Assembly (NCBI GenBank): GCA_020053105.1
Contig: JAGVNU010000084.1
Coordinates: forward strand, 1 to 64,000
Source: Thermodesulfovibrionia bacterium
Lineage (GTDB): Bacteria; Nitrospirota; Thermodesulfovibrionia; UBA6902
Direction: 5' to 3'
DNA length: 64,000 nucleotides
Below the pieces are notes generated by a model that did no database searches, was not told where the DNA came from, and was given only the letters and a program-made list of their open reading frames with translations. Positions 4,469 through 58,165 of this stretch are shown one piece after another (the stretch's first letter is position 1; each line of letters opens with the position of its first letter). A program made the translations under genes and the position numbers.

Positions 4469-4628
4469 ATTAAAGATAAGAATTTTGTTGTTGAAGTAAT
4501 AAACGAAGTTTCTGGTTATTATTGTAACAAACGCTTTTTATTTTAAGCAACGTAACTTAGATTTTTTGTATCATTTTCAAAAGAGTTGGTACGCTCTCAA
4601 GAATTCAAGGTTAGGAAGCGGTTAAGAA

Positions 4629-10011: not shown

Positions 10012-10196
10012 TTTAGTTTATTAGTGGTCTGAGATAATTAAAAGAAGCATCGGTTGTTAATATAACTAACGTTTAGTATATCTTTTATTCATAACATTGT
10101 ATATCAAGGTACTAAGAAAATATAGTGAATCAAGTGAATTATCTCAATAGTGTTTCCATATTTAATAATGAATAAAAATAATTTTACTGTTATTTT

Positions 10197-31090: not shown

Positions 31091-32179
31091 ATGATTAATG
31101 AAAAGAGCATAAAAGAATACATTAAAACCCTCTTCGGCGAAGAGGCCCTCAATGTAACAATAGAAAAACTCGGGGAGGGTGTTCAGGGCGCCGGCTTTCT
31201 CATTGAAATAAAAACGCATGAAGGTGATAAGCATTATGTCATAAAAGGTCTGTTCCCCGAAGGCCTGGAGCATGACTACCCTGCAGACAGGGCAGGTGTT
31301 TTCCTCCTTGACCTTGATGAGTTCAAGAACCTTCCCAAACACGTGAAGGCAATCGATGTGCTTTCAGAAATGGATGACGGATCAATTAAATCAATCGGCG
31401 GCGGCAAGGAATATTATCTGCTTATGGAACGTGCGGAAGGGAAAGATTACTTCAATGACCTGGCTGCGTTTGCCGGGAGAGACAAGCTTGATACTGGGGA
31501 TATAGAAAAGATCCATGCAATGGTGTCATATCTTGCAAAGATCCACTCCGCAAGAAAAGATTCAAAGCAGTTGTACTGGAGAAAGGTAAGGGACACTATC
31601 GGACACGGCGAATGCTTAATGGGGGTCTTTGATACATATCCTGAAGGCACAATCAGCAGTAGTGAAATGACGGCTATTGAAAAGAAATGCGTGGACTGGA
31701 GGGCAAGGTTAAAACCAAAATTTAAACGTCTCTGCCAGATTCATGGGGATTTCCATCCGGGGAATATCTGGTTTAAAAAAAAGGGCGAGAAAACCTCGCC
31801 ACTACATGCTCCGGTTGACTTCATACTCCTGGATCGCAGCAGAGGCCCGTGGGGTGACGCTGCAGATGACATTACTGCATTAACCATAAACTATATCTTT
31901 TTTTCAATAAATCATTTCGGCAAACTTCAGGGACCTTACCTTGAAGCAATCAATTTGTTTTATGATCAGTATATTAATGAGACCGGAGATGCTGAACTCT
32001 TTGAAGTGCTGGCGCCGTTTTACGCGTTCAGGGGAGTTGTAGTTGCAAACCCTGTGTTTTATCCTGAAGTAACCCCGGAGAACAGGCGCAGGATTTTTAA
32101 CTTTGTGAATGGTGTATTGGATGACGAATCATTTAAAATTGAGAAGGTGAATGAATATATACACAAGGGATCGGGATAA
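31091..32179 (+). CDS. Aminoglycoside phosphotransferase-like kinase
   Basis: 'RLCQIHGDFHPGNIWF...FILLDRSRGPWGDAADDITAL'. Confidence 0.85.
   Translation: MINEKSIKEYIKTLFGEEALNVTIEKLGEGVQGAGFLIEIKTHEGDKHYVIKGLFPEGLEHDYPADRAGVFLLDLDEFKNLPKHVKAIDVLSEMDDGSIKSIGGGKEYYLLMERAEGKDYFNDLAAFAGRDKLDTGDIEKIHAMVSYLAKIHSARKDSKQLYWRKVRDTIGHGECLMGVFDTYPEGTISSSEMTAIEKKCVDWRARLKPKFKRLCQIHGDFHPGNIWFKKKGEKTSPLHAPVDFILLDRSRGPWGDAADDITALTINYIFFSINHFGKLQGPYLEAINLFYDQYINETGDAELFEVLAPFYAFRGVVVANPVFYPEVTPENRRRIFNFVNGVLDDESFKIEKVNEYIHKGSG
31780..31805. repeat. Palindromic repeat, family A, in frame in CDS 31091..32179
   Basis: aaagggcgagaaaacctcgccactac encoding KGEKTSPL. Confidence 0.5.
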
Positions 32180-37381: not shown

Positions 37382-37458
37382 CGGGCTTCATGTGATAACG
37401 ATTCCGTCATCGATCCTTGACTAATCATCAAGCCCATAAGTTATAATTCTACTCATAT

Positions 37459-37636
37459 TGTTCAGGCGCCTGTAAAGGCTTAAAGGGGAATCCCGTGAAA
37501 TACGGGAGCGGACCCGCCGCTGTAATCCCGATTTCCGCTATTTTGGAATTCACAGTCTCTACTAGCAGAACGCCACTTGTTTAACTGACAGGGAAGGCAG
37601 ATAGAGATCGGGAGAGCCAGAAGACCTGCCTGGACA
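37459..37636 (+). promoter_or_regulatory. Cobalamin (adenosylcobalamin) riboswitch 1
   Basis: P1 'tgttcaggc'/'gcctggaca'; 'aaaggggaatcccgtgaaatacgggagcggacccgccgctgtaa', 'gccacttg', 'gggaaggcag', 'gagccagaagacctgcc'. Confidence 0.95.
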
Positions 37637-37699
37637 TAGCCTCACAAAATAGCCTTCGAGGGAAGGGGCTGTGAGGGTAAAGGTTATTTGGCTTTTATC

Positions 37700-40243: not shown

Positions 40244-40846
40244 ATGACAAGGATTTTTTTAATAAGACACGGAGAGACAGAGGGAGCGGAGTCCCGGCGG
40301 TACAAGGGGCATATGGATGTGCCCCTGTCTGAGAATGGGATTGAGCAGATCAAGAGGGTGGCGGATTATATTGCGGACAATCTGTTAACCGTGGTCTATT
40401 GTTCCGATCTGAGCAGGGCATTAAAAAGCGCGGAGATTATTGCTGAGCCTCATGGCATTAAGCCCGTTATCGTTGAAGCACTTAAAGAGCGCAGCTTCGG
40501 GGTGTGGGAAGGGATGTCTTTTGATGAGATAAAAGGGAAATGGCCCGATGCCTTTAATGCATGGGCAGAGAATCCGCTGAAGTTCAGCCCGATGGGCGGG
40601 GAGAGTACAATCGATGTAAGAAACCGGGTGATAAAGGCCTTTGAAGAAATTATGAAAAATCATAACGGACAGAATATAGCGATAGTTTCTCACGGGGGTG
40701 TAATCCGGGTCCTGTTATGCGAGATACTCGGTATGCCGCTTGAGAATATCTTCAGGATAGAGCAGAGTTTTGCGGCGCTGAATGTTATCGAGATGTGGGA
40801 TTATCCTGTAGTAAAACTGATTAATGGAGACGTAGTGGCGAGGTGA
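40244..40846 (+). CDS. cobC: Alpha-ribazole phosphatase/histidine phosphatase
   Basis: 'IFLIRHGETEG', 'ERSFGVWEGMSFDEI', 'VSHGGVIRVLLCEILG'. Confidence 0.9.
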   Translation: MTRIFLIRHGETEGAESRRYKGHMDVPLSENGIEQIKRVADYIADNLLTVVYCSDLSRALKSAEIIAEPHGIKPVIVEALKERSFGVWEGMSFDEIKGKWPDAFNAWAENPLKFSPMGGESTIDVRNRVIKAFEEIMKNHNGQNIAIVSHGGVIRVLLCEILGMPLENIFRIEQSFAALNVIEMWDYPVVKLINGDVVAR

Positions 40847-40858
40847 CCTCGCCCTTAC
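40832..40858. repeat. Palindromic repeat, family A, spanning the cobC stop codon
   Basis: gtagtggcgaggtgacctcgcccttac. Confidence 0.8.
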
Positions 40859-40872
40859 ATTTAAATCAATTT

Positions 40873-42492
40873 ATGGCAAAAGCAATAATGATACAGGGAA
40901 CAGGTTCCGGCGCAGGCAAGAGCGCTATCGTTGCCGGCCTCTGCAGGATATTCAGAGACATGGGCATCAAGGTCGCTCCTTTTAAATCGCAGAACATGGC
41001 GTTGAATTCATTCATTACAAAAGAAGGCGGCGAGATAGGACGGGCACAGGCATTTCAGGCCGAGGCAGCGGGACTGGAGCCATGCAATGACATGAACCCT
41101 GTATTGCTTAAAGCAACAGGAGAGGCCGGATGCCAGGTCATCCTTAACGGAAAGGTCCATGCGACGATGAAGGCGCATGAATATTACGCGATAAAGGACA
41201 AGGTCTGGCAGGAAATAACCGCGGCCTATGACAGGCTTTCAAAAGAATATGACCTGATCGTAATCGAAGGGGCGGGAAGCCCTGCGGAGATCAATCTTCA
41301 GGAGGAAGAGGTCGTTAATATGCGCGTTGCCCGCTATGCGGATGCGCCGGTCATTCTCGTTGGCGACATTGACAGGGGCGGGGTGTTTGCACAGTTTTAC
41401 GGTACCGTGGAATTATTGAAAGATAGCGTAGCGGCGTGGCACGACATGTCCGTACAATCCGACGCTGACTATATCAAGGCATTCATCGTGAATAAGTTCC
41501 GGGGTGACATAAACATTCTCAGGCCGGGTTTGAGAATGATAGAAGATAAGACAGGAAAGCCGGTCATCGGCACTCTTTACTATCAGAACCATATGGGGCT
41601 TGATGAAGAGGACGGGCTGTCAATCGAGAAGTTCTCAAGATTTGGCCAGTCAGGTCATAAGGACCTGAAAATAGTCGTCCTGAGACTGAAATATATTTCA
41701 AACTTCACTGACTTTGCCCCGTTCATATATGAGCCGGATGTTGAGATCAGGTACTCTTTATGGGAGGAAGATATCAGCAGCGCTGATCTTATTATTATCC
41801 CCGGTTCAAAAAACACTGTCAGCGACCTGCTGTTATTAAGGGAAAGCGGGATTGAGGATTGCGTGAAGGCGGCTGTCAGGAAAGGGACCGCCCTGATCGG
41901 CGTCTGTGGCGGTTATCAGATGATCGGGAACAAAATCTTTGATCCTGATAGCGTTGAAAGCAGCATGAGGGAAGTGGAGGGCATGGGTTTTCTTGATACT
42001 GTTACAACGTTTGACAGGACAAAGACCACATGCCAAGTGGAAGCAGAATCAGTTCAGAGTTTAGAGTCAGGAGTTAAGGGGGATAAAAACATTCTGAAGG
42101 GGTACGAAATTCATATGGGAAATACGACCGGGGATATTGGGATGTTCAGGATGAGAAGATACTCTTCTAACGGAGAAATCTGCAAGGGCAAGATGACCTC
42201 GCCCCTACGGACCACCAATATCATACCGGACGGTTCCGCAAATGATAATGTCTGGGGCACATACATCCACGGAATATTCGACAATGATGAATTCAGGACC
42301 TTGGTTATCAACTCCCTGAGAGAAAAGAAAGGCCTTCCGCCTCGCGATGTGGAAGTCAATTATCAGGCAACACGGGAAGAGGCAATAAACAGGTGGGCAG
42401 ATATATTAAAGAACAGCGTGGATATCTGTTTTATTTTAAGGCAGGTAGAAATGGAATACTGTATGAAACGGCCGTCCCCCCCAGGAGATTAA
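40873..42492 (+). CDS. cbiP: Cobyric acid synthase
   Basis: 'MIQGTGSGAGKSAIVAGLCRIF', 'SQNMALNSFITKEGGEIGRAQAFQAEAAG'; ATG at 40873 preferred over the track start 40843, which lies inside the palindrome. Confidence 0.95.
   Translation: MAKAIMIQGTGSGAGKSAIVAGLCRIFRDMGIKVAPFKSQNMALNSFITKEGGEIGRAQAFQAEAAGLEPCNDMNPVLLKATGEAGCQVILNGKVHATMKAHEYYAIKDKVWQEITAAYDRLSKEYDLIVIEGAGSPAEINLQEEEVVNMRVARYADAPVILVGDIDRGGVFAQFYGTVELLKDSVAAWHDMSVQSDADYIKAFIVNKFRGDINILRPGLRMIEDKTGKPVIGTLYYQNHMGLDEEDGLSIEKFSRFGQSGHKDLKIVVLRLKYISNFTDFAPFIYEPDVEIRYSLWEEDISSADLIIIPGSKNTVSDLLLLRESGIEDCVKAAVRKGTALIGVCGGYQMIGNKIFDPDSVESSMREVEGMGFLDTVTTFDRTKTTCQVEAESVQSLESGVKGDKNILKGYEIHMGNTTGDIGMFRMRRYSSNGEICKGKMTSPLRTTNIIPDGSANDNVWGTYIHGIFDNDEFRTLVINSLREKKGLPPRDVEVNYQATREEAINRWADILKNSVDICFILRQVEMEYCMKRPSPPGD
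42049..42078. repeat. Degenerate 7-bp-period repeat (family B), in frame in cbiP
   Basis: tcagttc agagttt agagtca ggagtta. Confidence 0.65.
42182..42208. repeat. Palindromic repeat, family A, in frame in cbiP
   Basis: gcaagggcaagatgacctcgcccctac encoding KGKMTSPL. Confidence 0.8.
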
Positions 42493-43529: not shown

Positions 43530-44644
43530 TTAATGAAAAGTCGGCAGCAGTGAGTAGAGGCGTATTGCAATACGCCACTACAGAGCATGGCGGCAATATC
43601 TATAAAATAGCCGGGGAGCTTGGATTGCCTGAAGAGAAGATGATTGATTTCAGCGCGTCCATAAACCCTCTCGGTCTATCAAAGAAGGTGAAGGAGACAA
43701 TCAGAAAGGGTATGGATGGTTTGGGTAACTACCCTGATCCGGACACATCAATGCTGAGACAAAAGATAGCTGAACACATTGATATTGACCCCGCAACAAT
43801 ACTCTGCGGCAATGGAAGCACAGAACTCATCTATCTCATTCCAAGGGCGCTCAAACCGGAACAGGCCCTGGTCCCCGCTCCCACGTTTTCGGAATATGAG
43901 AGGGCATGCAAATTGTGCAGGGGCGAGGTGACCTCGCCTGTGACGCGTTATGAATTAAAAGAACAAAACAATTTCCAATTTCATATTGATTCATTTATCA
44001 GCGCCATGCAGGGATGTGAAATGGCGTTTTTGTGTAACCCGAACAATCCCACGGGAGCTATCCTGAAGAGGGAAGAGATATTGGAAATTGCTGAAGCAGC
44101 AGGAAGGCAGCGGTGTTACCTTGTTGTTGATGAAGCTTTTATTGATTTCACTCCCGAAGAGTCGGTCATACATGACGTCCGGGACAATCCACATCTTATA
44201 GTCCTGAGGTCAATGACAAAATTCCATGCATTGACAGGCCTCAGGATCGGATACGCGGTTTTTCATAAGGACCTTATAGGGCGAGTGCTGGAATTCAAGG
44301 AGCCGTGGACGGTCAATAACCTGGCCCAAGAGGCAGCGGTCACAGCGCTTGATGACAGGGAATATATTGAAAGGACATACAGGTTGATTGCCCGTGAAAA
44401 AAAGTATGTTGAGAAAAGCCTTGAGAAATGCGGGATCAGTTTCTTCCCGTCCGCAGCCAATTACTATCTGTTAAAGGTTGCGGATGCGGGTGGACAGGTG
44501 GTCCTGTTAAGGAACAAGGGCATACTCGTCAGGGACTGTTCAAACTTCAGGGGACTGAATAACTCATATATCAGGATTGCGGTGAAGTCACGCAAACATA
44601 ATAAGATACTGATGAAGGAGCTTTCGGAATTATGCGCGGTATAG
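43526..44644 (+). CDS. cobD: L-threonine-O-3-phosphate decarboxylase
   Basis: 'MIDFSASINPLGLSKKV', 'LCGNGSTELIYLIPRAL', 'CNPNNPTGAI'. Confidence 0.93.
   Translation: MINEKSAAVSRGVLQYATTEHGGNIYKIAGELGLPEEKMIDFSASINPLGLSKKVKETIRKGMDGLGNYPDPDTSMLRQKIAEHIDIDPATILCGNGSTELIYLIPRALKPEQALVPAPTFSEYERACKLCRGEVTSPVTRYELKEQNNFQFHIDSFISAMQGCEMAFLCNPNNPTGAILKREEILEIAEAAGRQRCYLVVDEAFIDFTPEESVIHDVRDNPHLIVLRSMTKFHALTGLRIGYAVFHKDLIGRVLEFKEPWTVNNLAQEAAVTALDDREYIERTYRLIAREKKYVEKSLEKCGISFFPSAANYYLLKVADAGGQVVLLRNKGILVRDCSNFRGLNNSYIRIAVKSRKHNKILMKELSELCAV
43554..43581. repeat. Palindromic repeat, family A, in frame in cobD
   Basis: gtagaggcgtattgcaatacgccactac encoding SRGVLQYATT. Confidence 0.9.
43917..43943. 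repeat. Palindromic repeat, family A, in frame in cobD
   Basis: gcaggggcgaggtgacctcgcctgtga encoding RGEVTSPV. Confidence 0.85.
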
Positions 44645-46026
44645 TCATTGCAGGCACACACAGCGGCTGCGGGAAGACAACGGTTACCCTCGGGATCCTT
44701 GCCGCGTTGAGAAAAAAGGGATATAAGGTGCAGCCGTTCAAGGCCGGCCCTGACTTTATCGACACAGGCCTTCACAAACTCATTACCGGCATGACATCAA
44801 GGAACCTCGATCTATGGATGTGCGGAAGGGATTATGTCACTGACTGTTTTTCACGGCATTCAGCAGATGCAGATATATCGGTAGTAGAAGGCGTCATGGG
44901 AATGTATGACGGCAATATCAGTACCGCTGATCTTGCAGCTTCGCTCGGTTTGCCGGTCATACTTGTGGTCGATGCGTATGGTATGGCGGAGAGCGCAGGG
45001 GCGGTGGTGAAAGGTTTTGTGGAATATGGAGAACGGAATATGGATGTCCTCCCTACCGTTGCCGGTGTCATCTTCAACCGAATTGCCTCTGACAGACATT
45101 ACCAGAGAGTCAAAGACAGTGTGCAGGACGTCCCTGTGATCGGGTATTTGCCGAGGGATATGGATTTTAATATTCCCCACAGACATCTCGGCCTAGTCGT
45201 AGCAGAGGAAAGCCCGATACAAGCGGAAGAGATCGATAAACTGGCTGACGCGGTTTTGAGACATATTGATATGGATTCGATAGTGCAAAAAAGTGGAAGT
45301 GCGCTAACTGCAGGGGCGAGGTTATCTCGCCCCTACGTGACATCCAGCATACGTATCGCTGTTGCCTATGACAAGGCGTTCTGCTTTTACTACGAAGACA
45401 ATCTTGATCTGTTAAGACAGGCAGGCGCTGAGATACTGACCTTCAGTCCTATTTCGGACAACTCGGTCCCGGCTGACGCTGACGCTCTTTATATCGGCGG
45501 AGGTTATCCGGAACTGCATGCGGAGAAGCTGTCCGCCAACAAACCGATGCTGGAGTCCATAAGAAAATTCTCAGATGCAGGCAAGCCGGGATATGCGGAA
45601 TGCGGGGGTTTTATGTACATGACTGAGGGCATATATGATTTTGACAATGTGCTCCATCCTATGGCCGGGGTGTTCCCTTTTAAGACCAGGATGAAAAATG
45701 GAAGGTCAAGCCTGGGATACAGGGAAGCGGCTCTAAAAGAGCGGTCAATCCTCGGGATTAAAGGGACTGCGGTCAGAGGCCATGAGTTCCATTATTCAGA
45801 AGTATTGGAGAGTAGGGGCGAGGTCATCCCGCCCTCGCATTGCCCCACGATCTATTCCGTTAAAGACGGTTCCGGGCTGGCCCTTGCGGATGAAGGATAT
45901 AGAATCAAAAACACGCTTGGCAGTTATATTCACATCCATTTCGGAAGTAATTTATCCATAGCAGACAGCATCATTGATTTCATAAAGGAGTGTCATGGAA
46001 AAGATCATTATTGCGGGACACGGTAG
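44632..46026 (+). CDS. cbiA: Cobyrinate a,c-diamide synthase
   Basis: 'GIVIAGTHSGCGKTTVTLGIL', 'VVEGVMGMYDG', 'ALYIGGGYPELHAEKLS'. Confidence 0.96.
   Translation: MRGIVIAGTHSGCGKTTVTLGILAALRKKGYKVQPFKAGPDFIDTGLHKLITGMTSRNLDLWMCGRDYVTDCFSRHSADADISVVEGVMGMYDGNISTADLAASLGLPVILVVDAYGMAESAGAVVKGFVEYGERNMDVLPTVAGVIFNRIASDRHYQRVKDSVQDVPVIGYLPRDMDFNIPHRHLGLVVAEESPIQAEEIDKLADAVLRHIDMDSIVQKSGSALTAGARLSRPYVTSSIRIAVAYDKAFCFYYEDNLDLLRQAGAEILTFSPISDNSVPADADALYIGGGYPELHAEKLSANKPMLESIRKFSDAGKPGYAECGGFMYMTEGIYDFDNVLHPMAGVFPFKTRMKNGRSSLGYREAALKERSILGIKGTAVRGHEFHYSEVLESRGEVIPPSHCPTIYSVKDGSGLALADEGYRIKNTLGSYIHIHFGSNLSIADSIIDFIKECHGKDHYCGTR
45310..45336. repeat. Palindromic repeat, family A, in frame in cbiA
   Basis: gcaggggcgaggttatctcgcccctac encoding AGARLSRPY. 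Confidence 0.88.
45812..45838. repeat. Palindromic repeat, family A, in frame in cbiA
   Basis: gtaggggcgaggtcatcccgccctcgc encoding SRGEVIPPS. Confidence 0.8.
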
Positions 46027-47027: not shown

Positions 47028-47041
47028 CAATTACAATTTAC

Positions 47042-47184
47042 GGAATGATGAAGTGGAAAGGGGTGTGAATCCCCTGCTGTCACGCAGCCGTAAAGGGAAC
47101 GAAAACCCGGAAAGCCACTGTGCCGAAGCGTTGGCATGGGAAGGCGGGTGAGTAGGCTGCCCTGAGCCGGAAGACCTCTCATTC
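47042..47184 (+). promoter_or_regulatory. Cobalamin riboswitch 2
   Basis: P1 'ggaatga'/'tcattcc'; 'aaaggggtgtgaatcccctgctgtcacgcagccgtaa', 'agccactg', 'gggaaggcgggtgagtagg', 'gagccggaagacct'. Confidence 0.95.
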
Positions 47185-47216
47185 CCAAAACCTCGATGAA
47201 AAGGAGAGAGAAGAAA

Positions 47217-47990
47217 ATGATTAAGAAAATCTTTACAATTATTGTAGTCGTATTATGGTATGGAGCGGCATTCGCTGCACATCCGCTTATAACAGATGAC
47301 ACAGGGACTCAGGGCGCCGGAAAGTTTCAGATTGAAATCAATGGGGAATATGGACATGAGGAAGAAGACGAACTCACAGAAGAGGTTACTGAACTGGCAA
47401 CGATATTCTCGTATGGAATAAACAATGACATAGATATCGTTCTCGGCATCCCGTATCAGTATATAAGGATAGAAGATTCGGAAGAGACGGTCGATGAGGA
47501 CGGACTTTCGGACATGTCCATTGAAACGAAATGGCGTTTTTATGAAAAGGACGGGTTGGGCTTTGCATTGAAGCCCGGTGTCGCGCTGCCCGCTGGTGAT
47601 GAAGGGAAAGGTCTCGGCAGCGGTAGGGCGTCTTACGGCCTTGTACTTATAACGACAAAAGAAGCAGCTCCTCTCACTTTTCATTTTAATCTCGGATATA
47701 CACGCAATGAATACAAACTTGAGGAAGACGATGAAGCGAATAGAAAAGACATCTGGCATCTGTCGCTTGCTTCCGAAATACAGGTTGTTGAAAATCTTAC
47801 GGCAGTTGCAAATATCGGGACGGAGAGGAATTCCGACAAAGAATGGAATACAAACCCAACCTTTGTCCTCGGCGGATTGATTTATTATGTCTCGGAGAAC
47901 TTTGACATTAACATTGGCGTCAAAGGCGGACTGAATAAACCCGAAACTGACTATACAATCCTTGCCGGAATGACGGGGAGGTTTAAATGA
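47217..47990 (+). CDS. Outer-membrane beta-barrel-like protein (Phenol_MetA_deg/transporter-like)
   Basis: Signal peptide 'MIKKIFTIIVVVLWYGAAFA|AHPLITDDTGTQGAGKFQIEINGEYG' with alternating beta pattern; between riboswitch and cbiM. Start 47217 rather than 47196. Confidence 0.7.
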   Translation: MIKKIFTIIVVVLWYGAAFAAHPLITDDTGTQGAGKFQIEINGEYGHEEEDELTEEVTELATIFSYGINNDIDIVLGIPYQYIRIEDSEETVDEDGLSDMSIETKWRFYEKDGLGFALKPGVALPAGDEGKGLGSGRASYGLVLITTKEAAPLTFHFNLGYTRNEYKLEEDDEANRKDIWHLSLASEIQVVENLTAVANIGTERNSDKEWNTNPTFVLGGLIYYVSENFDINIGVKGGLNKPETDYTILAGMTGRFK

Positions 47991-48754
47991 AAATTCAAAA
48001 TCCAAAATTCAAATTTATTGTTTTAACGCTGTTCACTGTTCACTGTTCACTATTCACCGCATCTGACGCGCATGCCATGCACATCTCGGAAGGCATATTG
48101 CCATTCAACTGGGCGGCGCTGTGGTTTCTTGTCGCTTTACCATTTGTTGCATACGGATTAAGGAGGCTCAAAATCCTTTCAAAGACCGATCTGTCGATCA
48201 AGCCTCTGGTAGGGTTAATGGCTGCGATAGTGTTTGTAATTTCCTGCATGCCCATACCTGTGCCGACTGCGGGAACATGCTCTCATCCTGCAGGAACAGG
48301 AATATCAGGGATACTTGTCGGACCGACGATAAGCATACTTGTTACAGCAGTAGCGTTGCTCATTCAGGCGCTCTTTCTTGCACACGGCGGATTAAGTACA
48401 TGGGGGGCGGATATAGTATCAATGGGTGTGGCAGGATCGTTTGCAGGATACCTGACATTCCGGGCGTTGCGCTCGGTAAAGGTAAACATGACAGTAGCTG
48501 CTTTCATGGCAGGTGTCCTCGCAGACTGGGCAACATATCTGACAACCTCCGTTGAACTTGCATCGGGGATAAGAGGCGATTCGCCGTTTCTTCCGCTTTT
48601 CTATAAGATACTCATTGCCTTTATTCCAACGCAGCTTCCATTAGGGCTACTGGAAGGAGCAATGACCTCGGGCATGGTTGTCCTGCTTTACAAAAAGAGA
48701 CCTGATTTGCTTGTGAAGATGCGTGTGTTAAAGGCAGAGGAGGCAATATCATGA
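47987..48754 (+). CDS. cbiM: Cobalt ECF transporter substrate-specific component CbiM
   Basis: 'HAMHISEGILPFNWAALWFLVALPFVAYG...PTAGTCSHPAGTGISGILVGPTISILVTAVALLIQALFLAHGGLSTWGADIVSMGVAGSF'. Confidence 0.96.
   Translation: MKIQNPKFKFIVLTLFTVHCSLFTASDAHAMHISEGILPFNWAALWFLVALPFVAYGLRRLKILSKTDLSIKPLVGLMAAIVFVISCMPIPVPTAGTCSHPAGTGISGILVGPTISILVTAVALLIQALFLAHGGLSTWGADIVSMGVAGSFAGYLTFRALRSVKVNMTVAAFMAGVLADWATYLTTSVELASGIRGDSPFLPLFYKILIAFIPTQLPLGLLEGAMTSGMVVLLYKKRPDLLVKMRVLKAEEAIS
47990..48016. repeat. 7-bp-period repeat (family B) at the cbiM start
   Basis: aaaattc aaaatcc aaaattc aaattt. Confidence 0.8.
48031..48058. repeat. 7-bp tandem repeat (family B) in the cbiM signal peptide
   Basis: gttcact gttcact gttcact attcacc. 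Confidence 0.92.
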
Positions 48755-49080
48755 AAGATCAAAAATCAGAAATCAAAAATCAATATTATGGAATGATTTT
48801 TTTAATCATATTATTACTCTCTACCTGCTGCCCTCTACTCGCCGCTGCTTCGGAGAAGTGGGGTGGTGTTGACGAATCAGTCGTGGAGAAATATGCGAAA
48901 GAACAGGGCAGAGAGGCAAGGGAACCATTAATCAACACAGACCAGGGAGACCTGCTTCTCTTTGTTTTCCTTCTTGCAGGCGCTGTTGGAGGGTTTATCG
49001 GAGGATACTACTGGAGAACTCTGACTGAAAGCAGAGCAGGGAATCCCGGAGAGTCCGGACACAGAGCACATACAGAATGA
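48751..49080 (+). CDS. CbiN-like small membrane protein
   Basis: N-terminal hydrophobic segment, 'LLLFVFLLAGAVGGFIGGYYW'; located between cbiM and cbiQ. Confidence 0.7.
   Translation: MKDQKSEIKNQYYGMIFLIILLLSTCCPLLAAASEKWGGVDESVVEKYAKEQGREAREPLINTDQGDLLLFVFLLAGAVGGFIGGYYWRTLTESRAGNPGESGHRAHTE
48754..48781. repeat. 7-bp-period repeat (family B) at the N-terminus of the CbiN-like protein
   Basis: aaagatc aaaaatc agaaatc aaaaatc. Confidence 0.8.
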
Positions 49081-49155: not shown

Positions 49156-49908
49156 ATGGAAGTATTTTCGGAACATTTTAAAACAGGACATTTCCTTTCT
49201 AAAGTAGATGCAAGGGCAAAACTGATTGTCACCCTTGCGCTCCTGGGAATGGTTTTAAGTTATAAAGGGACAATGTTTCCATTGGTTATAGCCGCTATAT
49301 CCATTGTCCTTTGCCTGAAGATGCACATACCTGTGCGAATCCTGGCTCTGAGATTAGCGCAGCCTGTTCTTATGGCATTTGCGGTCCTGTTATTGAAGCT
49401 TTTCTTTTCAGGAGAGGACATCCTGTTTTCATTTAATCTCTTCGGGATGGAATTGGACGGGCATAAAGACGGACTTATTGAAGGCCTGCTGATAGCCTCC
49501 AGGATATTAGGAGGAGTTTCTCTTTTAGTGGCAGTTGGGTTTGCAACACCTTTTATTGAATTTATGGCAGCGCTTTCGTGGCTGAGGATCCCTAAGTCCT
49601 TTATCGAAATAACGATGTTTGCATACAGATATCTCTTTATGTTTCTTGAGGACGCAACTACTATTTACAGCGCCCAGAAAAACCGTCTCGGTTATTCGGG
49701 AATTAGAAAAGGATTAAGTTCTTTCGGTGTTCTGACAGGGTCGCTTGTCTTGCGCGGTTTTGAGCAGAGTCAGAAGACGGCTGACGCGATGATTCAAAGG
49801 GGCTACACGGGAGACCTGCCTTTGCTTAAGGGGAAGCCCTTGAGGACCATAGAACTTGCTGTTGCATTTTTAATAGTGGCCTTTGGAGGCGCTGTATGGA
49901 TGATCTGA
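49156..49908 (+). CDS. cbiQ: Cobalt ECF transporter T component CbiQ
   Basis: 'LSKVDARAKLIVTLALLGMVLSY...FAYRYLFMFLEDATTIYSAQKNRLGYSG...GSLVLRGFEQSQKTADAMIQRGY'; ATG 49156 avoids starting inside the inverted repeat. Confidence 0.95.
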   Translation: MEVFSEHFKTGHFLSKVDARAKLIVTLALLGMVLSYKGTMFPLVIAAISIVLCLKMHIPVRILALRLAQPVLMAFAVLLLKLFFSGEDILFSFNLFGMELDGHKDGLIEGLLIASRILGGVSLLVAVGFATPFIEFMAALSWLRIPKSFIEITMFAYRYLFMFLEDATTIYSAQKNRLGYSGIRKGLSSFGVLTGSLVLRGFEQSQKTADAMIQRGYTGDLPLLKGKPLRTIELAVAFLIVAFGGAVWMI

Positions 49909-50750
49909 TGTACAGCGTCAGACATGTTTCATATAAATACCCTGATGGCACGCATGCCCTGTCTGATATAAACCTTGAGGTCAAGAAAGGCGAATTCATC
50001 GGCCTGCTGGGGGCCAACGGGTCAGGCAAGACTACCCTGCTCAGGGCCATGGACAAGCTCCTTAAAGGTGTTGAAGGCAGCGTGCATCTGGACGGCGTCG
50101 ATATCAGGACACTCTCACCAAAGGAGATATATAAAAAAGTCGGGCTGGTGTTTCAGAACCCGGATGACCAGTTGTTTGCGCCGACACTTTTTGAAGACGT
50201 TGCCTTTGGGCCGACGAATATGGGATTTGCAGCAAATGAAGTTGAAAAAAGGGTCATGAGCGCACTTAATGAGGTTGAGCTGGCAGGCCTTGAAAAAAAA
50301 TCCGTCCACAACCTGAGCTTCGGCCAGAGGAAAAGGGCCTGCATTGCCGGACTCCTGGCTATGGGACATGAAATGCTTCTGCTTGACGAACCAACCGCAG
50401 GTCTTGACCCTATGGGCGAATACAAAATGATGGGCCTGCTTCAGAAGCTCAACAGGGAGAAGCAGGTGACGATTGTCATGGCTACCCACAGCGTTGACCT
50501 GGTGCCTGTATTTCTTGACCGTCTTTATATCCTGAGCAGGGGAAAGATTACAAGGGGCGGGGCCCCGGAAGAGGTCTTTAACGCGCCTGAAGATATGGCC
50601 CATATCAAGCTCCGGCTTCCCCATATAGCTGAATTGATTTACAGGCTTAAACATGAAGACAAGGTGGACTTTGAACGAATACCGCTCACCATTGGTGAGG
50701 CAAGACGGGAGATACTGAGGTCTCTCGAAACTTCATTAAAGAGGAGGTGA
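49896..50750 (+). CDS. cbiO: Cobalt ECF transporter ATPase CbiO
   Basis: 'GLLGANGSGKTTLLRAMDKLLKG', 'LSFGQRKRACIAGLLAMGHEMLLLDEPTAGLDPMG'. Confidence 0.97.
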   Translation: MDDLMYSVRHVSYKYPDGTHALSDINLEVKKGEFIGLLGANGSGKTTLLRAMDKLLKGVEGSVHLDGVDIRTLSPKEIYKKVGLVFQNPDDQLFAPTLFEDVAFGPTNMGFAANEVEKRVMSALNEVELAGLEKKSVHNLSFGQRKRACIAGLLAMGHEMLLLDEPTAGLDPMGEYKMMGLLQKLNREKQVTIVMATHSVDLVPVFLDRLYILSRGKITRGGAPEEVFNAPEDMAHIKLRLPHIAELIYRLKHEDKVDFERIPLTIGEARREILRSLETSLKRR

Positions 50751-50754
50751 ACTC

Positions 50755-50892
50755 TTGAAAAAGGCAACAAAGGCTGAGAAGAAAAATACGAAAACGGCTA
50801 TTTCCTATCACATGAAATGCGCAACGACAGCTAACGGGCTTACACATTTTGTGATGTATGGTGATATTCCGAAAAAGAAGATGCCTCTGTAA
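50755..50892 (+). CDS. Putative RiPP-type precursor peptide (CbpA-like) for the adjacent radical SAM enzyme
   Basis: SD 'gaggaggtga' then TTG at 50755: MKKATKAEKKNTKTAISYHMKCATTANGLTHFVMYGDIPKKKMPL*; Lys-rich leader, core with one Cys; 5 nt after the cbiO stop; not in the ORF track. Confidence 0.75.
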   Translation: MKKATKAEKKNTKTAISYHMKCATTANGLTHFVMYGDIPKKKMPL

Positions 50893-51041: not shown

Positions 51042-52403
51042 ATGAGCAAAGGATGCAAATGCGGTTGTTCACAAGGAGCTGTTGAAAGGGGCCTTTCCTT
51101 TTCCAATGTCGATGACAACTGGAAACTGGCGCTGGATGCCGACAATATATTCTGGAGTATTTTGCCGAGGCAAAACGGCGGCTTCATGCTCCCCCAGGAC
51201 ATGATCGACCTTTACAAAAAAGAAATGAAGCACCTTGATGATGAGATGCATAATTTCAGGTTCAATGAACCGTTGAACTGTGTCTACATTGATCCGACGG
51301 ACCGGTGCAATGCCAACTGCCCTTACTGCTACATCCCTTCAATGATAAGGCAGCAGGGGACCCAGATGACCGCTGAACAGCTTGATATCGTGCTAGGAAA
51401 AATCGTGGACCATTTCAAAGGTATGAAAAAGAAACCAGTGATCGTATTCCACGCTGCCGAGCCGCTGCTTGTAAAGGACATTCTCTTTGGGGCCATTAAG
51501 AAGTATCACAAAAAGATGCTCTTCGGTATCCAGACAAATGCCCTTTTACTTGAAAAGGAGGACGTTGATTTCATAAAGAAGTACAGCGTGGGTATCGGCA
51601 TTTCACTTGATGCCTCAACTGCGGCAGTCAATAATCTTTCACGTGTATCGAGAAAGGGCGAGGGGAATTTCAAGAAGGCTGTGCAGGCACTGGACTGGTT
51701 TGCGGGGTATGAGGGACTGAATGTGATCTGTACTGTTAATAAATACAACGTGGACAAACTCTCGGAACTTGTTACATTCCTTCATTCAAAGAAGGTGCCG
51801 ATGGTCCTGCTCAATCCTGTCCGTCTTACACAGAAACGTTCTGAACAGGTGAAACCCGATGATAAGGTATATGCTCAAAACCTGATAAAGGCCGTTGACA
51901 CTGCAATGGCGCTCACAAAGAAGACCGAACGCCAGATAGTGGTCGGCAACTTCGCCAACGTATTGCTGGCGATCATATCACCGACAGCAAGGCGCATGAT
52001 GTGCGACATCTCTCCATGCGGAGGCGGCAGGACATTCCTCACCGTCACAGCCGACGGCGCAATGGTGCCGTGCGGGGAATTCATCGGCTTTAAGGAATTC
52101 TCAGGCGGAAACATATTCAAAACATCTATCGCAAAGGCAATGGAGTCAAAGCCCTTTAAGGCGATCAGGGCGAGGATGGTAGAGAATATCGATGAATGCA
52201 ATACCTGTGACTTCAGGCACATATGCGGCTCGCCGTGCCCGGCAGAGATGCATGCACGCGGCAATATAAACAAGAAGGCCGTGTTCTGCGATTTCTATAA
52301 GGAGATCATTGTGCATGCCTTTAAGATGATAGCTGAGGATAACGTCAAGTACCTTCTGCGGGATGACTCGCTCGATCAGATGCAGATGGAATATAAATAT
52401 TAA
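51042..52403 (+). CDS. Radical SAM/SPASM peptide-modifying enzyme (CbpB-like)
   Basis: CX3CX2C 'DRCNANCPYCYIP'; C-terminal SPASM-like 'MMCDISPCGGGRTFLTVTADGAMVPCGEF...CNTCDFRHICGSPCPAEM...VFCDFY'; N-term 'MSKGCKCGC'. Confidence 0.92.
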   Translation: MSKGCKCGCSQGAVERGLSFSNVDDNWKLALDADNIFWSILPRQNGGFMLPQDMIDLYKKEMKHLDDEMHNFRFNEPLNCVYIDPTDRCNANCPYCYIPSMIRQQGTQMTAEQLDIVLGKIVDHFKGMKKKPVIVFHAAEPLLVKDILFGAIKKYHKKMLFGIQTNALLLEKEDVDFIKKYSVGIGISLDASTAAVNNLSRVSRKGEGNFKKAVQALDWFAGYEGLNVICTVNKYNVDKLSELVTFLHSKKVPMVLLNPVRLTQKRSEQVKPDDKVYAQNLIKAVDTAMALTKKTERQIVVGNFANVLLAIISPTARRMMCDISPCGGGRTFLTVTADGAMVPCGEFIGFKEFSGGNIFKTSIAKAMESKPFKAIRARMVENIDECNTCDFRHICGSPCPAEMHARGNINKKAVFCDFYKEIIVHAFKMIAEDNVKYLLRDDSLDQMQMEYKY

Positions 52404-52406
52404 TCT

Positions 52407-52432
52407 GTAGGGGCGAGGTCATCTCGACCTAC
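52407..52432. repeat. Palindromic repeat, family A (intergenic)
   Basis: gtaggggcgaggtcatctcgacctac. Confidence 0.85.
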
Positions 52433-52446
52433 ATTTAACATATACC

Positions 52447-53634
52447 ATGAAAAGGCATTTAAGGTCAGGATATACAACAGGAGCATGTGCGGCTGCAGCT
52501 GCAAAGGCGGCGGTGTTGATGCTGCTTGATGAAGTATGTCGGCAATCAAATGCAGGGGCAATTTACCCTGAAGGGCACAGGCATGAATTGCCCCTACAGG
52601 TCGAATATGTTGAGGTCCCGTTTCCGGACGGCAGCAGGGTGAAATTTAAAATTCATAAGTCGGAACTCATAACGCTTAACTCTCAACTTACTGCACGTGC
52701 ATCTGTTGTCAAGGATGCAGGAGACGATCCTGATGTTACGAATAGGGCGGAGATTGTGGCAGAAGCAAAGATGGTGCAGGCAACAGATGTAGGGTCAATT
52801 CATGAATTGCCCCTACGGATAGACATCAAAGGCGGCACGGGCGTCGGCACAGTTACCAAGCCCGGCCTTCCCGTTCCAATCGGTGAGCCTGCGATTAATC
52901 CCGTGCCGAGGAAGATGATTAAAGAAGCTGTATTGGAAGTCGTAGGGGCGAGGTCATCTCGCCCTGACATCAGCACAATTGAAATCACCATCTCCGTCCC
53001 AAACGGAGAGGAGCTTGCTAAAAAAACATTGAACTACCGACTCGGCATCATCGGAGGGATTTCAATTCTCGGCACCACAGGCATTGTCAAACCCGTTTCA
53101 ACAGAGGCGTGGACAGCGACCATTGCTTCATCCATGGACGTTGCAAAGGCGATGGGACATAAAGAGATAGCAGTATCTGCAGGACGTTCGTCGGAAAAAG
53201 CGCATATGAAGAAATTCAACTTGCCCGAAGAAGTATACGTTCTCATGGGAGATTACCTTGAATATTCTCTGAAAGAGGCAAAGAGGCACGGCTTTAAGAA
53301 GATCCACCTTTGTGCTCAGTGGGCCAAGATGGTTAAAATAGCAATGGCAACGCCGCAGACGCATGTAAGGTTCGGGGCGATTGATATAAAGAAGGCGGTG
53401 GACTTCTTAATAGAATTAAATCCGGAACTGCGGAATTCGGAATTCGGAATTCGGAATTTCAATACGGCAAGAGAAATATTTGAACTCGTTAAATCCGCAA
53501 TCCGCAATCCGCAATCCGCATTTTCGGATGTCTGTAATTCTGCTAAGACATATGCTGAAGGAATAGCCGAAGGCATTCCCGTTACCACATATCTTGTATC
53601 ATATGAAGGGGAGATAATTGCATCAAGTGAATAA
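52447..53634 (+). CDS. cbiD: Cobalt-precorrin-5B C1-methyltransferase
   Basis: 'LRSGYTTGACAAAAAKAAV', 'GGTGVGTVTKPGLPVPIGEPAINPVPRKMI', 'GTTGIVKPVSTEAW'. Confidence 0.97.
   Translation: MKRHLRSGYTTGACAAAAAKAAVLMLLDEVCRQSNAGAIYPEGHRHELPLQVEYVEVPFPDGSRVKFKIHKSELITLNSQLTARASVVKDAGDDPDVTNRAEIVAEAKMVQATDVGSIHELPLRIDIKGGTGVGTVTKPGLPVPIGEPAINPVPRKMIKEAVLEVVGARSSRPDISTIEITISVPNGEELAKKTLNYRLGIIGGISILGTTGIVKPVSTEAWTATIASSMDVAKAMGHKEIAVSAGRSSEKAHMKKFNLPEEVYVLMGDYLEYSLKEAKRHGFKKIHLCAQWAKMVKIAMATPQTHVRFGAIDIKKAVDFLIELNPELRNSEFGIRNFNTAREIFELVKSAIRNPQSAFSDVCNSAKTYAEGIAEGIPVTTYLVSYEGEIIASSE
52552..52597. repeat. Expanded family A palindrome (extra central sequence), in frame in cbiD
   Basis: gcaggggcaattt-accctgaagggcacaggcatg-aattgcccctac encoding AGAIYPEGHRHELPL. 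Confidence 0.8.
52662..52696. repeat. Weak 7-bp-period repeat (family B), in frame in cbiD
   Basis: ggaactc ataacgc ttaactc tcaactt. Confidence 0.45.
52789..52816. repeat. Palindromic repeat, family A, in frame in cbiD
   Basis: gtagggtcaattcatgaattgcccctac encoding VGSIHELPL. Confidence 0.92.
52942..52968. repeat. Palindromic repeat, family A, in frame in cbiD
   Basis: gtaggggcgaggtcatctcgccctgac encoding VGARSSRPD. Confidence 0.92.
53424..53460. repeat. 7-bp tandem repeat (family B), in frame in cbiD
   Basis: ggaattc x3 with flanking partial copies, encoding RNSEFGIRNF. Confidence 0.9.
53492..53520. repeat. 7-bp tandem repeat (family B), in frame in cbiD
   Basis: aatccgc x4 encoding SAIRNPQSAF. 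Confidence 0.92.
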
Positions 53635-54877
53635 GGTCCAAATTATAGGAATAGGCTTCAGGCCTCTCGACATGAGGGCCGGCAGGGCGCTTCTGAATTC
53701 AGATGTTGTCCTTGTAAATGACCGTCTTCTCGATGTCTTTAAAAATTATGCGGAATACGGTGAGGTGAAGGACCGGATCATTGCCCACGGCAGTGTCTAT
53801 GAAATGCTCGATTATATTGCGGATAATTATCAGACTAAGAACATAGCGCTCCTGGCTGCCGGAGACCCGATGTTCTTCGGCATAGGCAGACTGGTCATAG
53901 AGAGACTTGGAAAAGACGCAGCAGAAATATACCCGGACCTTTCAAGCATCCAGGTCGCCTTCTCCAGAATAAGAGAGACCTCCAATAATGCGCTCCTGAT
54001 AAGCCTGCACGGAGGCCCTGATCCTGAAAAGAGGAGAAAGCTTGAGTATGAACTTACGGACTTGCCGGGGCTTCTAATGCGGCATAGCAAAATTGCTATT
54101 CTTACCGACAAGGTCAACAGTCCTGAGGCGATTGCGCACATGCTATGCAAGGGCGAGATGACCTCGCCCCTGCGGATGTATGTTTGTGAGAAGCTTGGGT
54201 ATGATGACGAGAAGGTCACTGAAGGGACGCCAGAAGAGATTTCAAAAATGTCATTCGGGCATCCGAATGTTGTGATTATCGTAGGGGCAATTCATGAATT
54301 GCCCCTACACGTCGTATTCGGGCTTAAAGAAGACGAGATTCAGCATTCAAGAGGTTTGATCACAAAAGACGAAGTCCGGGCTGTTACTATCCATAAATTA
54401 AGATTGCCGAAGACGGGAGTGCTCTGGGACATCGGTGCAGGGTCTGGTTCGGTGTCAATTGAAGCCGCGATCATCTGCCCTGATTTGAAAATATATGCAA
54501 TTGAAAAAGATGAAGACCAGATGCTCAATATCAGGGAGAATAAAAGCAGGTATAAGACAGGGAATATCAAAATTGTCAGCGGTCATGCCCCTGACGCACT
54601 CATACAACTGCCTGCGCCGGACAGGGTCTTCATTGGCGGCAGCAGCGGCAGGTTAAATGATATCGCGGATTATATTAATGACCGGATGCCTTCAGGAATT
54701 GTAGTTATAAACGCAGCGACAATCGAGACATTGAATGAAGCGGTCCAGTCTCTTGAGAGAAATGGTTTCAGGGTTGATGTCTCAGAGATCTCAGTTTCAA
54801 GATCGAAGACAATTGGCGGTAAAAGGCATATGAGCGCACTGAACCCGATATTTATCGTTACAGGAGAAAAGGTGTAA
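53627..54877 (+). CDS. Cobalt-precorrin-7 C5-/C15-methyltransferase fusion (CbiE-CbiT/CobL)
   Basis: N-term 'VQIIGIGFRPLDMRAGRALLNSDVVLVNDRLL'; C-term 'TKDEVRAVTIHKLRLPKTGVLWDIGAGSGSVSIEAAI'. Confidence 0.95.
   Translation: MNKVQIIGIGFRPLDMRAGRALLNSDVVLVNDRLLDVFKNYAEYGEVKDRIIAHGSVYEMLDYIADNYQTKNIALLAAGDPMFFGIGRLVIERLGKDAAEIYPDLSSIQVAFSRIRETSNNALLISLHGGPDPEKRRKLEYELTDLPGLLMRHSKIAILTDKVNSPEAIAHMLCKGEMTSPLRMYVCEKLGYDDEKVTEGTPEEISKMSFGHPNVVIIVGAIHELPLHVVFGLKEDEIQHSRGLITKDEVRAVTIHKLRLPKTGVLWDIGAGSGSVSIEAAIICPDLKIYAIEKDEDQMLNIRENKSRYKTGNIKIVSGHAPDALIQLPAPDRVFIGGSSGRLNDIADYINDRMPSGIVVINAATIETLNEAVQSLERNGFRVDVSEISVSRSKTIGGKRHMSALNPIFIVTGEKV
54147..54173. repeat. Palindromic repeat, family A, in frame in cbiE-T
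   Basis: gcaagggcgagatgacctcgcccctgc encoding KGEMTSPL. Confidence 0.85.
54281..54308. repeat. Perfect 28-bp palindrome, family A, in frame in cbiE-T
   Basis: gtaggggcaattcatgaattgcccctac encoding VGAIHELPL. Confidence 0.97.
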
Positions 54878-55602
54878 TGACAGGCAGACTGAGCGTCATC
54901 GGTATCGGCCCCGGGGACCCGGAGTTGTTGACCCTGAAGGCCGTGAGGGTCATTAAAGAATCCTCTGTGCTTTGTGTCCCCAAAGGCCGTGAGGAAGGGA
55001 GCAGCCTTGCCTTGTCGATAGTTGAAAAGGCGGTGGATCTTGACGGGAAGGAGATTATCGAGGCGCATTTTCCGATGAGAAAAACTATGGGGCAAGGAGC
55101 AGATCATACAGATTTGAGTCTCGATGATAAATGGAATCAAATAGCTGAAACAATCCTGACTCAGCTTAAGAAAGGGAAGGACGTTGCCTTTCTCACCCTC
55201 GGCGACCCGACTATCTACAGCACGTTTTTTTATCTATACGATAAACTGCTTGAACTCCGGCCTGACCTGAGCATCCAGATAATCCCCGGGGTTTCTTCCA
55301 TAAATGCATCAGCTGCCAGGGCGAATATTTCCCTGGGGCTGGGGAATGAGAGGATCGCCATTCTCCCGGCAAATTACCTGGACAACCTGAAGACGACTCT
55401 GGAGATGTTTGATACTGTGGTGCTCATGAAGGTGAACAAGGTGCTGGATGAAATAATAAAGCTGCTTGGGGAAATGGACCTTATCGGCAGCGCTGTCTGC
55501 GTTTCAAGGGCCGGGATGGAGGATGAAATAATATACCGGGACATCACAAAGATAAAACAGGAAGGCTTAAATTATTTTTCAGTGGTGATTGTCAGAAAAT
55601 GA
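54877..55602 (+). CDS. cbiL: Precorrin-2/cobalt-factor II C20-methyltransferase
   Basis: 'SVIGIGPGDPELLTLKAVRVIKES', 'TLGDPTIYSTFFYLYDKL'. Confidence 0.95.
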   Translation: MTGRLSVIGIGPGDPELLTLKAVRVIKESSVLCVPKGREEGSSLALSIVEKAVDLDGKEIIEAHFPMRKTMGQGADHTDLSLDDKWNQIAETILTQLKKGKDVAFLTLGDPTIYSTFFYLYDKLLELRPDLSIQIIPGVSSINASAARANISLGLGNERIAILPANYLDNLKTTLEMFDTVVLMKVNKVLDEIIKLLGEMDLIGSAVCVSRAGMEDEIIYRDITKIKQEGLNYFSVVIVRK

Positions 55603-56396
55603 CTCAGGATGACCTCATATATTTAAAGAGCTGGTTTGCGGATTACACCAAGGCTTATTATTCCGCTGATGCCGAAGACCAGAAGAACATACTGCTGAAG
55701 GTCGAGCATACTGATAATGTTTGCAGAAATATCGTTGCGATAGCCGAAGGCTCGTCCCTTGCCGGTAATCAGATAAAGCTGGCTGAGGCGGTGGCGCTTT
55801 TCCATGATGTCGGGAGGTTCCGGCAATACACCAGGTACAAAACATTCAGGGACGCTATTTCGCTCAATCACGGGCTGCTGGGATCAAAGATACTGATTGA
55901 GGAAAAGGTCCTTCAGCGGCTTCCCGTTGATGAACAGCAATTGATAATTCAGTCCGTAAAGTTTCACAATGCATTTGCAATACCGGCCACACTGGACAGC
56001 GATGTGGTTTTATTATTGAAATTAATCCGTGACGCGGACAAGGTGGATATATTCCGCGTCTTCATCGAGTATTATGAAAGCCCTGTAGAAAAAAGGGCGT
56101 CCGCAACCGCTTTCAGGATGCCTGATACCCCTGAATATTCAGAGGTCATGCTTTCATGTATTATGAATAAACATGTTGCTTCATATTCAAATATCAGGAC
56201 CGAAAATGATTTTAAATTGATGAAACTTTCCTGGGTGTATGACATGCATTTTAAAGAATCTGTCAGGCTTGTCCAGGAACGAAATTATTTAGACAGCATC
56301 ATTAACAAGCTTCCTCAAACTGAAGATATTCTGGCTGCAGCGGAAGTCTTGAGGGAATACATATCTCAGAGGTTAAACAGTGACGAAAAAAAATAA
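55599..56396 (+). CDS. HD-domain phosphohydrolase-like protein
   Basis: 'KVEHTDNVCRNIVAIAEG...LAEAVALFHDVGRFRQYTRY...NHGLLGSKIL...LLLKLIRDADKVDIFRV'. Confidence 0.85.
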   Translation: MTQDDLIYLKSWFADYTKAYYSADAEDQKNILLKVEHTDNVCRNIVAIAEGSSLAGNQIKLAEAVALFHDVGRFRQYTRYKTFRDAISLNHGLLGSKILIEEKVLQRLPVDEQQLIIQSVKFHNAFAIPATLDSDVVLLLKLIRDADKVDIFRVFIEYYESPVEKRASATAFRMPDTPEYSEVMLSCIMNKHVASYSNIRTENDFKLMKLSWVYDMHFKESVRLVQERNYLDSIINKLPQTEDILAAAEVLREYISQRLNSDEKK

Positions 56397-57144: not shown

Positions 57145-58165
57145 GTCGAAAGTTAAAAAAGGCGGGAAGACGACTATCTTCTATATCACAGGCAACGCCT
57201 TCAAACTTGCTCAGAAACTGAAAGGACTTCATCCTGATGCGCAGATTGTTAAATTCACGTCCGCAGGGGCAATTCATGAATTCCCCCTGCAATGGCGGGA
57301 ATCCAGAAACATCATCTTTATCATGGCAACAGGAATTGTCGTGAGGACAATCGCGCCGCTGCTTAAAGATAAAAGGACAGATCCTGCGGTAGTCGTCCTT
57401 GATGAAAAGGGACGGCATGCCATCAGTCTGCTGAGCGGACATCTAGGAGGGGCGAACAAGCTGGCCGCAGAAATAGCTGACTTCCTGGGTGCACAGGCAG
57501 TGATCACAACTGCTTCGGACGTGCAGGGCAGGACAGCGCTGGATATCTGGGCGGATGAGAGAGGTCTTTATGTAGAAGATTATGAGAGGCTGAAACGTCT
57601 GAGCGCAAAGATCGTAAACGGTAAACGCGTAAAGGTGTATACAGGCAATTCCATTGTCCTGCCGGGAGTGCCCGACGAATTTAACATCGTTGAATCATCA
57701 AATATAGCTGAAATAGTTATTTCTGAAGCGCTGTATAAAAGAAAGACCCTTTACATGAGACCCCGGAACCTTTTTGCGGGGATAGGCTGCAACAGAGGCA
57801 CGACAAGAGATGAAATCCAGAATGAATTCACATCACTCCTCAAAGAAAACAGGCTGTCCGCTCATTCCATAGCAGGCATTGCCTCCATTGATCTTAAAAA
57901 AGATGAAGAGGGGCTGCTTGAGTTCGCTGATGATAATGGTTTGCCAATCCGGTTTTTCCCCGGAGACGCGCTTAATGCAGTGGCGGATGAGCTGGGCATC
58001 AAACAATCAAAACAGGTCATGGCCGCGACCGGTGCAGTTGCCGTATCCGAGCCAGCTGCAGTATTGGCAGCAAGACAGGCGTCTGACAGGGTCGATATAA
58101 TTATTCCAAAAGTAAAAAGGGGGAATGTAACATTATCAATCGCAAAGGCAAAGTTAACGTTGTAG
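57128..58165 (+). CDS. cbiG: Cobalt-precorrin-5A hydrolase
   Basis: 'IIFIMATGIVVRTIAPLLKDKRTDPAVVVLDEKGRHAISLLSGHLGGANKLA', 'FAGIGCNRGTTRDEI'. Confidence 0.96.
   Translation: MSTESKSKVKKGGKTTIFYITGNAFKLAQKLKGLHPDAQIVKFTSAGAIHEFPLQWRESRNIIFIMATGIVVRTIAPLLKDKRTDPAVVVLDEKGRHAISLLSGHLGGANKLAAEIADFLGAQAVITTASDVQGRTALDIWADERGLYVEDYERLKRLSAKIVNGKRVKVYTGNSIVLPGVPDEFNIVESSNIAEIVISEALYKRKTLYMRPRNLFAGIGCNRGTTRDEIQNEFTSLLKENRLSAHSIAGIASIDLKKDEEGLLEFADDNGLPIRFFPGDALNAVADELGIKQSKQVMAATGAVAVSEPAAVLAARQASDRVDIIIPKVKRGNVTLSIAKAKLTL
57263..57290. repeat. Palindromic repeat, family A, in frame in cbiG
   Basis: gcaggggcaattcatgaattccccctgc encoding AGAIHEFPL, followed by an ATTCCC-type half 'ggcgggaatccagaaa'. 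Confidence 0.9.

Follow-up and report, generated by a model that had tools for sequence, protein, structure and literature searches.

In a 64,000-nucleotide stretch of DNA from a Thermodesulfovibrionia bacterium (hereafter, the window), a gene for a 45-residue precursor peptide, cbpA (50755..50892, +), precedes one for a predicted peptide-modifying radical SAM/SPASM enzyme, cbpB (51042..52403, +). In at least three bacterial phyla this pair lies in the B12 regulon, including operons directly behind a B12 riboswitch. The reading that we favor, at a probability of roughly one half, is that CbpB matures the C-terminal part of CbpA, that the pair is repressed by B12, and that the product serves in corrinoid acquisition or late assembly, likely as an intracellular ligand. 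The enzyme family, the pairing with the peptide, and the linkage to B12 genes all support the accessory peptide-modification function tied to B12 status that the original prediction had suggested for cbpB.

The CbpB enzyme and its partner peptide

The ATG-initiated cbpB frame encodes 453 residues (456 from an alternative TTG three codons earlier) and lies between cbiO and cbiD exactly where it had been placed. Pfam searches detected Radical_SAM (PF04055, 55.7 bits) and SPASM (PF13186, 37.1 bits) domains. The CX3CX2C motif, C89-NAN-C93-PY-C96, is encoded by the CNANCPYC stretch (51306..51329, +), and its three cysteines are the predicted ligands of the radical SAM cluster. The SPASM region in the C-terminal half (52002..52289, +) contributes eight further cysteines (321, 326, 344, 386, 389, 395, 399, and 416) and E346. 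All 11 cysteines, as well as E346, were invariant in an alignment of 61 homologues. The CX3CX2C motif and the Cys-rich C-terminus, both read from the sequence beforehand, are thus borne out, and with this combination CbpB belongs to the SPASM-domain radical SAM enzymes. Classification among the known subfamilies, which the original prediction had proposed as a check, gave 502.7 bits against NCBIfam TIGR04163 (CbpB, rSAM_cobopep), an equivalog model with a curated cut-off of 375 bits, over profile positions 10-425 of 428. Among the other peptide-maturase models listed, anSME included, CbpB scored far under each cut-off.

AlphaFold2 gave a confident model of CbpB (pLDDT 87.9, pTM 0.88). Its N-terminus does carry the GCKCGC motif that had been singled out as unusual, in a segment modeled as disordered (residues 1-15, pLDDT < 50). 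The motif is kept only in the closest relatives and absent from most homologues, which rules it out as a metal or cluster motif. An RRE-type winged helix-turn-helix, with three strands and three helices, was not found at the N-terminus of the model; three strands do precede the barrel, but with a single long helix (residues 19-74).

The upstream peptide, MKKATKAEKKNTKTAISYHMKCATTANGLTHFVMYGDIPKKKMPL, starts with TTG preceded by an AGGAGG ribosome-binding site. Its dN/dS of about 0.04 (21 core codons, 53 loci) indicates strong purifying selection, and the 45-residue ORF is therefore a real gene; a chance ORF is ruled out by this ratio together with the co-occurrence with CbpB. Upstream DNA of 600 nt or more was available for 65 distinct loci, and in 63 of them a CbpA homologue was encoded directly 5' of CbpB. 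One of the two exceptions has a run of N upstream (L053); for the species of the other (L019; genome G207), the peptide is encoded on a different contig. In a survey of 231 genomes of the class, with one peptide profile, CbpB was found in 50 and CbpA in 51: 49 had both, one only CbpB, two only CbpA, and 179 neither (Fisher p ~1e-46, with related genomes counted as independent). In both CbpA-only genomes the contig ends at the peptide or shortly past it, and in the CbpB-only genome (G004) the match is N-terminally incomplete. One genome (G136) carries two complete cbpA-cbpB pairs, on contigs C6 and C35. The adjacent peptide, put forward earlier as a candidate substrate, is accordingly well supported as the cognate partner. 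The survey covered the groups reachable from the fetched genomes, namely Nitrospirota, Omnitrophota, Planctomycetota, and one archaeal phylum; the pair was rare in Planctomycetota (5 of 343 genomes) and in the archaeal survey (1 of 300).

Two types of CbpA and CbpB

The midpoint-rooted tree of CbpB resolved two supported clades. Clade 1 comprises the enzymes that match the NCBIfam models best (about 660-720 bits); their peptides end in ...GTGLSHYILMDKK. In clade 2, which includes the window, full-length enzymes score about 460-525 bits and bacterial peptides read ...TANGLTHFVMYGDVPKKKMPL or variants thereof; the archaeal L059 and L060 branch at its base. An alignment of 30 peptides showed that only C22, G28, L29, and H31 (window numbering) are invariant across both types, with F or Y at position 32. 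The shared pattern, in the C-terminal part of the peptide, is C-x5-G-L-x-H-(F/Y), represented in the window by CATTANGLTHF. In the window's clade, conservation reaches the C-terminus of the peptide.

The NCBIfam model of the peptide, TIGR04164 (CbpA, cobo_pep; curated cut-off 35 bits), did not match the window peptide even at an E-value of 10. Applied to relatives, it gave no match for L035, 12-28 bits for L051, L058, and L059, and 47.5 bits for L063, which passes; those relatives of the window's type that were tried had no match or scores below the cut-off. The window peptide aligns with TIGR04164-passing peptides and occupies the same genetic position, and one profile finds both types, indicating that they are homologous. 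Judged by alignment, the window CbpA is thus a divergent second type, homologous to the NCBIfam CbpA and missed by TIGR04164; the current model misses one major precursor type.

Association of cbpAB with the B12 regulon

The gene order in the window is cbiA, cbiX-cbiC, a gene for an outer-membrane-like protein, cbiM, a small cbiN-like gene, cbiQ, cbiO, cbpA, cbpB, cbiD, cbiE-cbiT, cbiL, an HD-domain gene, cbiF, and cbiG, where the labels cbiA, cbiE-cbiT, cbiL, cbiF, and cbiG were read off sequence and gene order with no model behind them. Immediately 5' of the pair is the gene for a CbiO-like ECF transporter ATPase (49896..50750, +), and immediately 3' is cbiD (52447..53634, +; TIGR00312, 342.8 bits). 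A riboswitch had been predicted upstream of cbpB, and a search with Rfam RF00174 duly found a cobalamin riboswitch (47029..47197, +; 76 bits) ahead of the run from the outer-membrane-like gene through cbpB, about 3.6 kb upstream of cbpA on the same strand; another lies at 37447-37647. No terminator-like site was found on the plus strand in the gaps around cbpA. The sequence suggests that the window cbpAB shares a transcription unit with the riboswitch at 47029-47197 and belongs to an RF00174 regulon.

Several other features of the island were recorded. The 109-residue ORF between cbiM and cbiQ (48751-49080) has no Pfam or NCBIfam match; its position and sequence are kept across relatives, and it is probably a divergent CbiN-type subunit. 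Directly behind the riboswitch, a putative outer-membrane protein (47196-47990; Pfam Phenol_MetA_deg) is possibly a corrinoid or cobalt porin, since it recurs in related B12 islands. The HD-domain protein (265 residues, 55599-56396) stays beside cbpAB in several relatives (L014/L123, L018, and L095), even with most cbi genes absent, and is a candidate functional partner. The window also contains two dispersed repeats. A 26-base palindrome, TAGGGGCAATTCATGAATTGCCCCTA, occurs within the cbiD, cbiE-cbiT, and cbiG frames (52790-52815, 54282-54307, and 57264-57289) and is translated in frame as approximately AIHELPL/AIHEFPL; none of the three copies is expected by chance, and they resemble the in-frame palindromic elements known from Rickettsia. 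The other repeat, GTAGGGGCGAGGTCATCTCGCC, has 11 matches where chance predicts none, some being both strands of one palindrome; the copies are at 31784-31805, 40832-40858, 42187-42208, 43917-43938, 45310-45336, 45812-45833, 52407-52428, 52942-52963, and 54152-54173, and several of them lie inside cbi genes.

We examined the neighborhoods of the relatives, labeling genes by BLAST searches of a small reference set, with Pfam anchoring some of the labels. With cobalamin genes within 6 kb or an upstream cobalamin riboswitch as the measure, 69 of the 75 distinct loci that have 5 kb or more of flank were B12-linked, a count that, like those of co-occurrence, is taken over related genomes. It is composed of 49 loci linked by gene and four by riboswitch (L058, L067, L114, and L120) out of 57, together with 17 of 19 from the Omnitrophota set, L061 and L167 being one contig counted once. 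The six unlinked loci are archaeal (L059 and L060), planctomycete (L119), truncated (L064), or L158 and L162; apart from the truncated one, these had no B12 gene or riboswitch nearby. No B12 link was seen at seven paralogue loci of the same genome, which have shorter flanks.

The settings of the pair vary. The pair comes right after cbiO, within a de novo cobalamin island, in most loci from Thermodesulfovibrionia. Elsewhere it lies between CobT and CobS (L125), beside CobT (L056), near CbiB (L018 and L061, Omnitrophota), or beside CbiZ or BtuF (L113 and L118). It is also found in salvage islands, with a TonB receptor, CobU, CobT, CobS, and CobC in L123 and with CobU/T/S and BtuF-type transporters in L153, L156, and L169-L171. 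In L123, the gene adjoining cbpAB (10064-11185) encodes CbiX fused to a CbiE-like tetrapyrrole methylase, and no CbiD was found in that genome, whose organism seems to be a B12 salvager. In L113, the genes 3' of CbpB (2876-5138) encode a diphthamide-synthase-like ATP pyrophosphatase, CbiZ, and a second radical SAM protein, and look like a corrinoid remodeling cluster.

The position behind cbiO in most loci of the class, and the family names rSAM_cobopep and cobo_pep, would fit a modified CbpA specific for cobalt, acting as an intracellular chaperone or as a regulator or small subunit of the CbiMQO transporter. Against this stand the salvage-type islands L123, L125, L153, L156, and L169-L171, which keep the pair among BtuBCDF/CobUTSC-type genes with CbiMQO absent from the fetched stretch, and the lack of cbiD in 14 of the 50 CbpB genomes of the class and in 18 of the 35 CbpAB genomes tested from other groups, many of these being incomplete assemblies. 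We therefore regard a cobalt-specific role as unlikely. Since salvage islands carry the pair, cbpAB is not confined to cobalt uptake, and the specific link to cobalt uptake drawn in the original prediction was not supported: many relatives of the pair are found in islands for corrinoid salvage, or stand alone behind a B12 riboswitch. CobS was present in 28 of the 31 CbpB genomes tested. A requirement of CbpB for corrin synthesis is ruled out as well, as CbpB is missing from 76 of the 112 genomes of the class with CbiD, and CbiD from many genomes with CbpB; because most B12-making relatives do without the pair, cbpAB is accessory. From gene context we conclude that what the cbpAB loci have in common is probably the B12 regulon, and not cobalt transport.

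Ten loci of Nitrospirota, Planctomycetota, and Omnitrophota (L058, L114, L117, L118, L120, L126, L154, L157, L159, and L161) have a cobalamin riboswitch directly 5' of cbpA. Four of them have B12 neighbors (L118, L154, L157, and L159), whereas the other six have no other recognized B12 gene nearby, some of their flanks being cut short by contig ends. At these six loci and at L118, the gap between aptamer and cbpA folds as a long hairpin followed by a T-run, the form expected for a terminator that B12 would trigger. The riboswitch and terminator-type hairpin directly upstream show that cbpAB can itself be a unit of predicted B12 regulation. B12-independent isozymes occur under the same riboswitch class, and such stand-alone operons could accordingly be taken for a B12-sparing system whose product, at times of B12 shortage, stands in for a B12-dependent function or protects it. 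The neighbors of cbpAB are genes for B12 synthesis, salvage, and uptake, and not for B12-dependent or B12-independent enzymes, which makes this reading improbable.

Proposed role and comparison with known systems

On the favored reading, scarcity of B12 would let the riboswitch permit transcription of cbpAB. As family, pairing, and conservation suggest, CbpB would then bind CbpA and, by means of a 5'-deoxyadenosyl radical, modify its C-terminal segment, the one with the invariant C-x5-G-L-x-H-(F/Y). Going by gene context, the modified peptide may act on corrinoid uptake, remodeling, or delivery. No protease or exporter recurred among the annotated neighbors of cbpAB, so that an intracellular product is the simpler reading: the modified peptide would most likely be a small corrinoid- or cobalt-handling ligand that acts through the invariant Cys and His, either as such or modified. 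Because these two residues could ligand cobalt, the most specific testable version is a corrinoid-binding peptide. In that version, which we offer tentatively and with the odds against it, modified CbpA would be a genetically encoded corrinoid ligand that binds the cobalt of cobalamin or its precursors through Cys/His or a crosslink, carries them in the cell, and is made only under B12 limitation. To our knowledge, no ribosomal modified peptide dedicated to vitamin B12 was known earlier, and CbpA would be the first if this is true.

PQQ and mycofactocin are cofactors trimmed from precursor peptides, and CbpA might likewise yield a small cofactor, for example a redox cofactor that reduces corrinoid cobalt, or a peptide-derived small ligand. 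A short peptide with a single maturase of the SPASM type is what such a pathway would look like, and B12-linked regulation would fit a need common to de novo synthesis and salvage. The lack of a recurrent protease among the annotated neighbors tells against trimming, as does the conservation of the window-clade peptide to its C-terminus, beyond what a two-residue cofactor would need; we consider this origin rather unlikely.

By profile and fold, the solved structures nearest CbpB are those of the SCIFF maturase CteB, anSMEcpe, and ChlB. The best Foldseek match was CteB (PDB 5WGG and 5WHY; E 2.8e-20, TM 0.67-0.69 by query length), which forms thioethers. Unlike CbpB, CteB has no Cys aligned to C321, and SCIFF is a six-Cys peptide, whereas CbpA has one invariant Cys. 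With anSMEcpe (PDB 4K36-4K39; TM 0.81-0.84 by target length), CbpB has the eight-Cys SPASM pattern in common, and in the sequence alignment E346 is close to the anSME base position. That CbpB is an anSME or a close functional equivalent, with the peptide incidental, is nevertheless very improbable, and anSME identity itself is ruled out by the score of 114.7 bits against the anSME model TIGR03942, far under its cut-off of 349.45. The substrate of anSMEcpe is another one, the C/S-x-P-x-R target motif is absent from the 30 aligned CbpA peptides, and CbpA and CbpB co-occur tightly. The outcome that the original prediction had named as fatal to it, assignment to anSME with peptide and enzyme not found together, is the opposite of what was observed.

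The PapB ranthipeptide maturase model (NF047865) gave the third-best NCBIfam score for CbpB (122.8 bits against a cut-off of 340). PapB crosslinks Cys to Asp or Glu (PMC9413430). No ranthipeptide-type Asp or Glu near C22 is conserved among the aligned CbpA peptides, and this missing motif disfavors CX3D/E thioether chemistry. Oxidation of Ser or Thr at position 30 is also disfavored: this position is Ala in L113 (GLAHY), so that Ser or Thr is not essential there. Fully ligated clusters in anSME and SuiB are thought to act as electron sinks (PMC8326336). The eight SPASM cysteines of CbpB match the fully ligated anSME pattern and not that of CteB, and, if ligated in that way, they would argue against the open-site auxiliary cluster of ranthipeptide and sactipeptide synthases. 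As a lead only, an electron-sink cluster would suit an oxidation or the formation of a C-C bond no less than that of a thioether. Modeling of peptide and enzyme as one fused chain, taken from an in-frame readthrough that occurs naturally in L009, did not position the peptide in the enzyme (pLDDT 34-43).

CbpA and CbpB were already known as named NCBIfam families; no functional study of either was found in the literature searched. The window pair resembles these families in an enzyme that scores above the cut-off, in the order of peptide then enzyme, and in the C-x5-G-L-x-H-(F/Y) pattern. It differs in a longer conserved C-terminus of the peptide, FVMYGD-x-P-KKKMPL, in the missing TIGR04164 match, and in an enzyme clade that stands apart from the seed-like one. 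New here are the second CbpA type, which the model misses, its almost exceptionless pairing with the enzyme, the occurrence of the pair in de novo islands, in salvage islands, and in stand-alone operons behind riboswitches, and the B12 regulon as the probable common denominator. If CbpA is modified and acts on corrinoids, it would be a new kind of player in B12 acquisition by anaerobic and subsurface bacteria.
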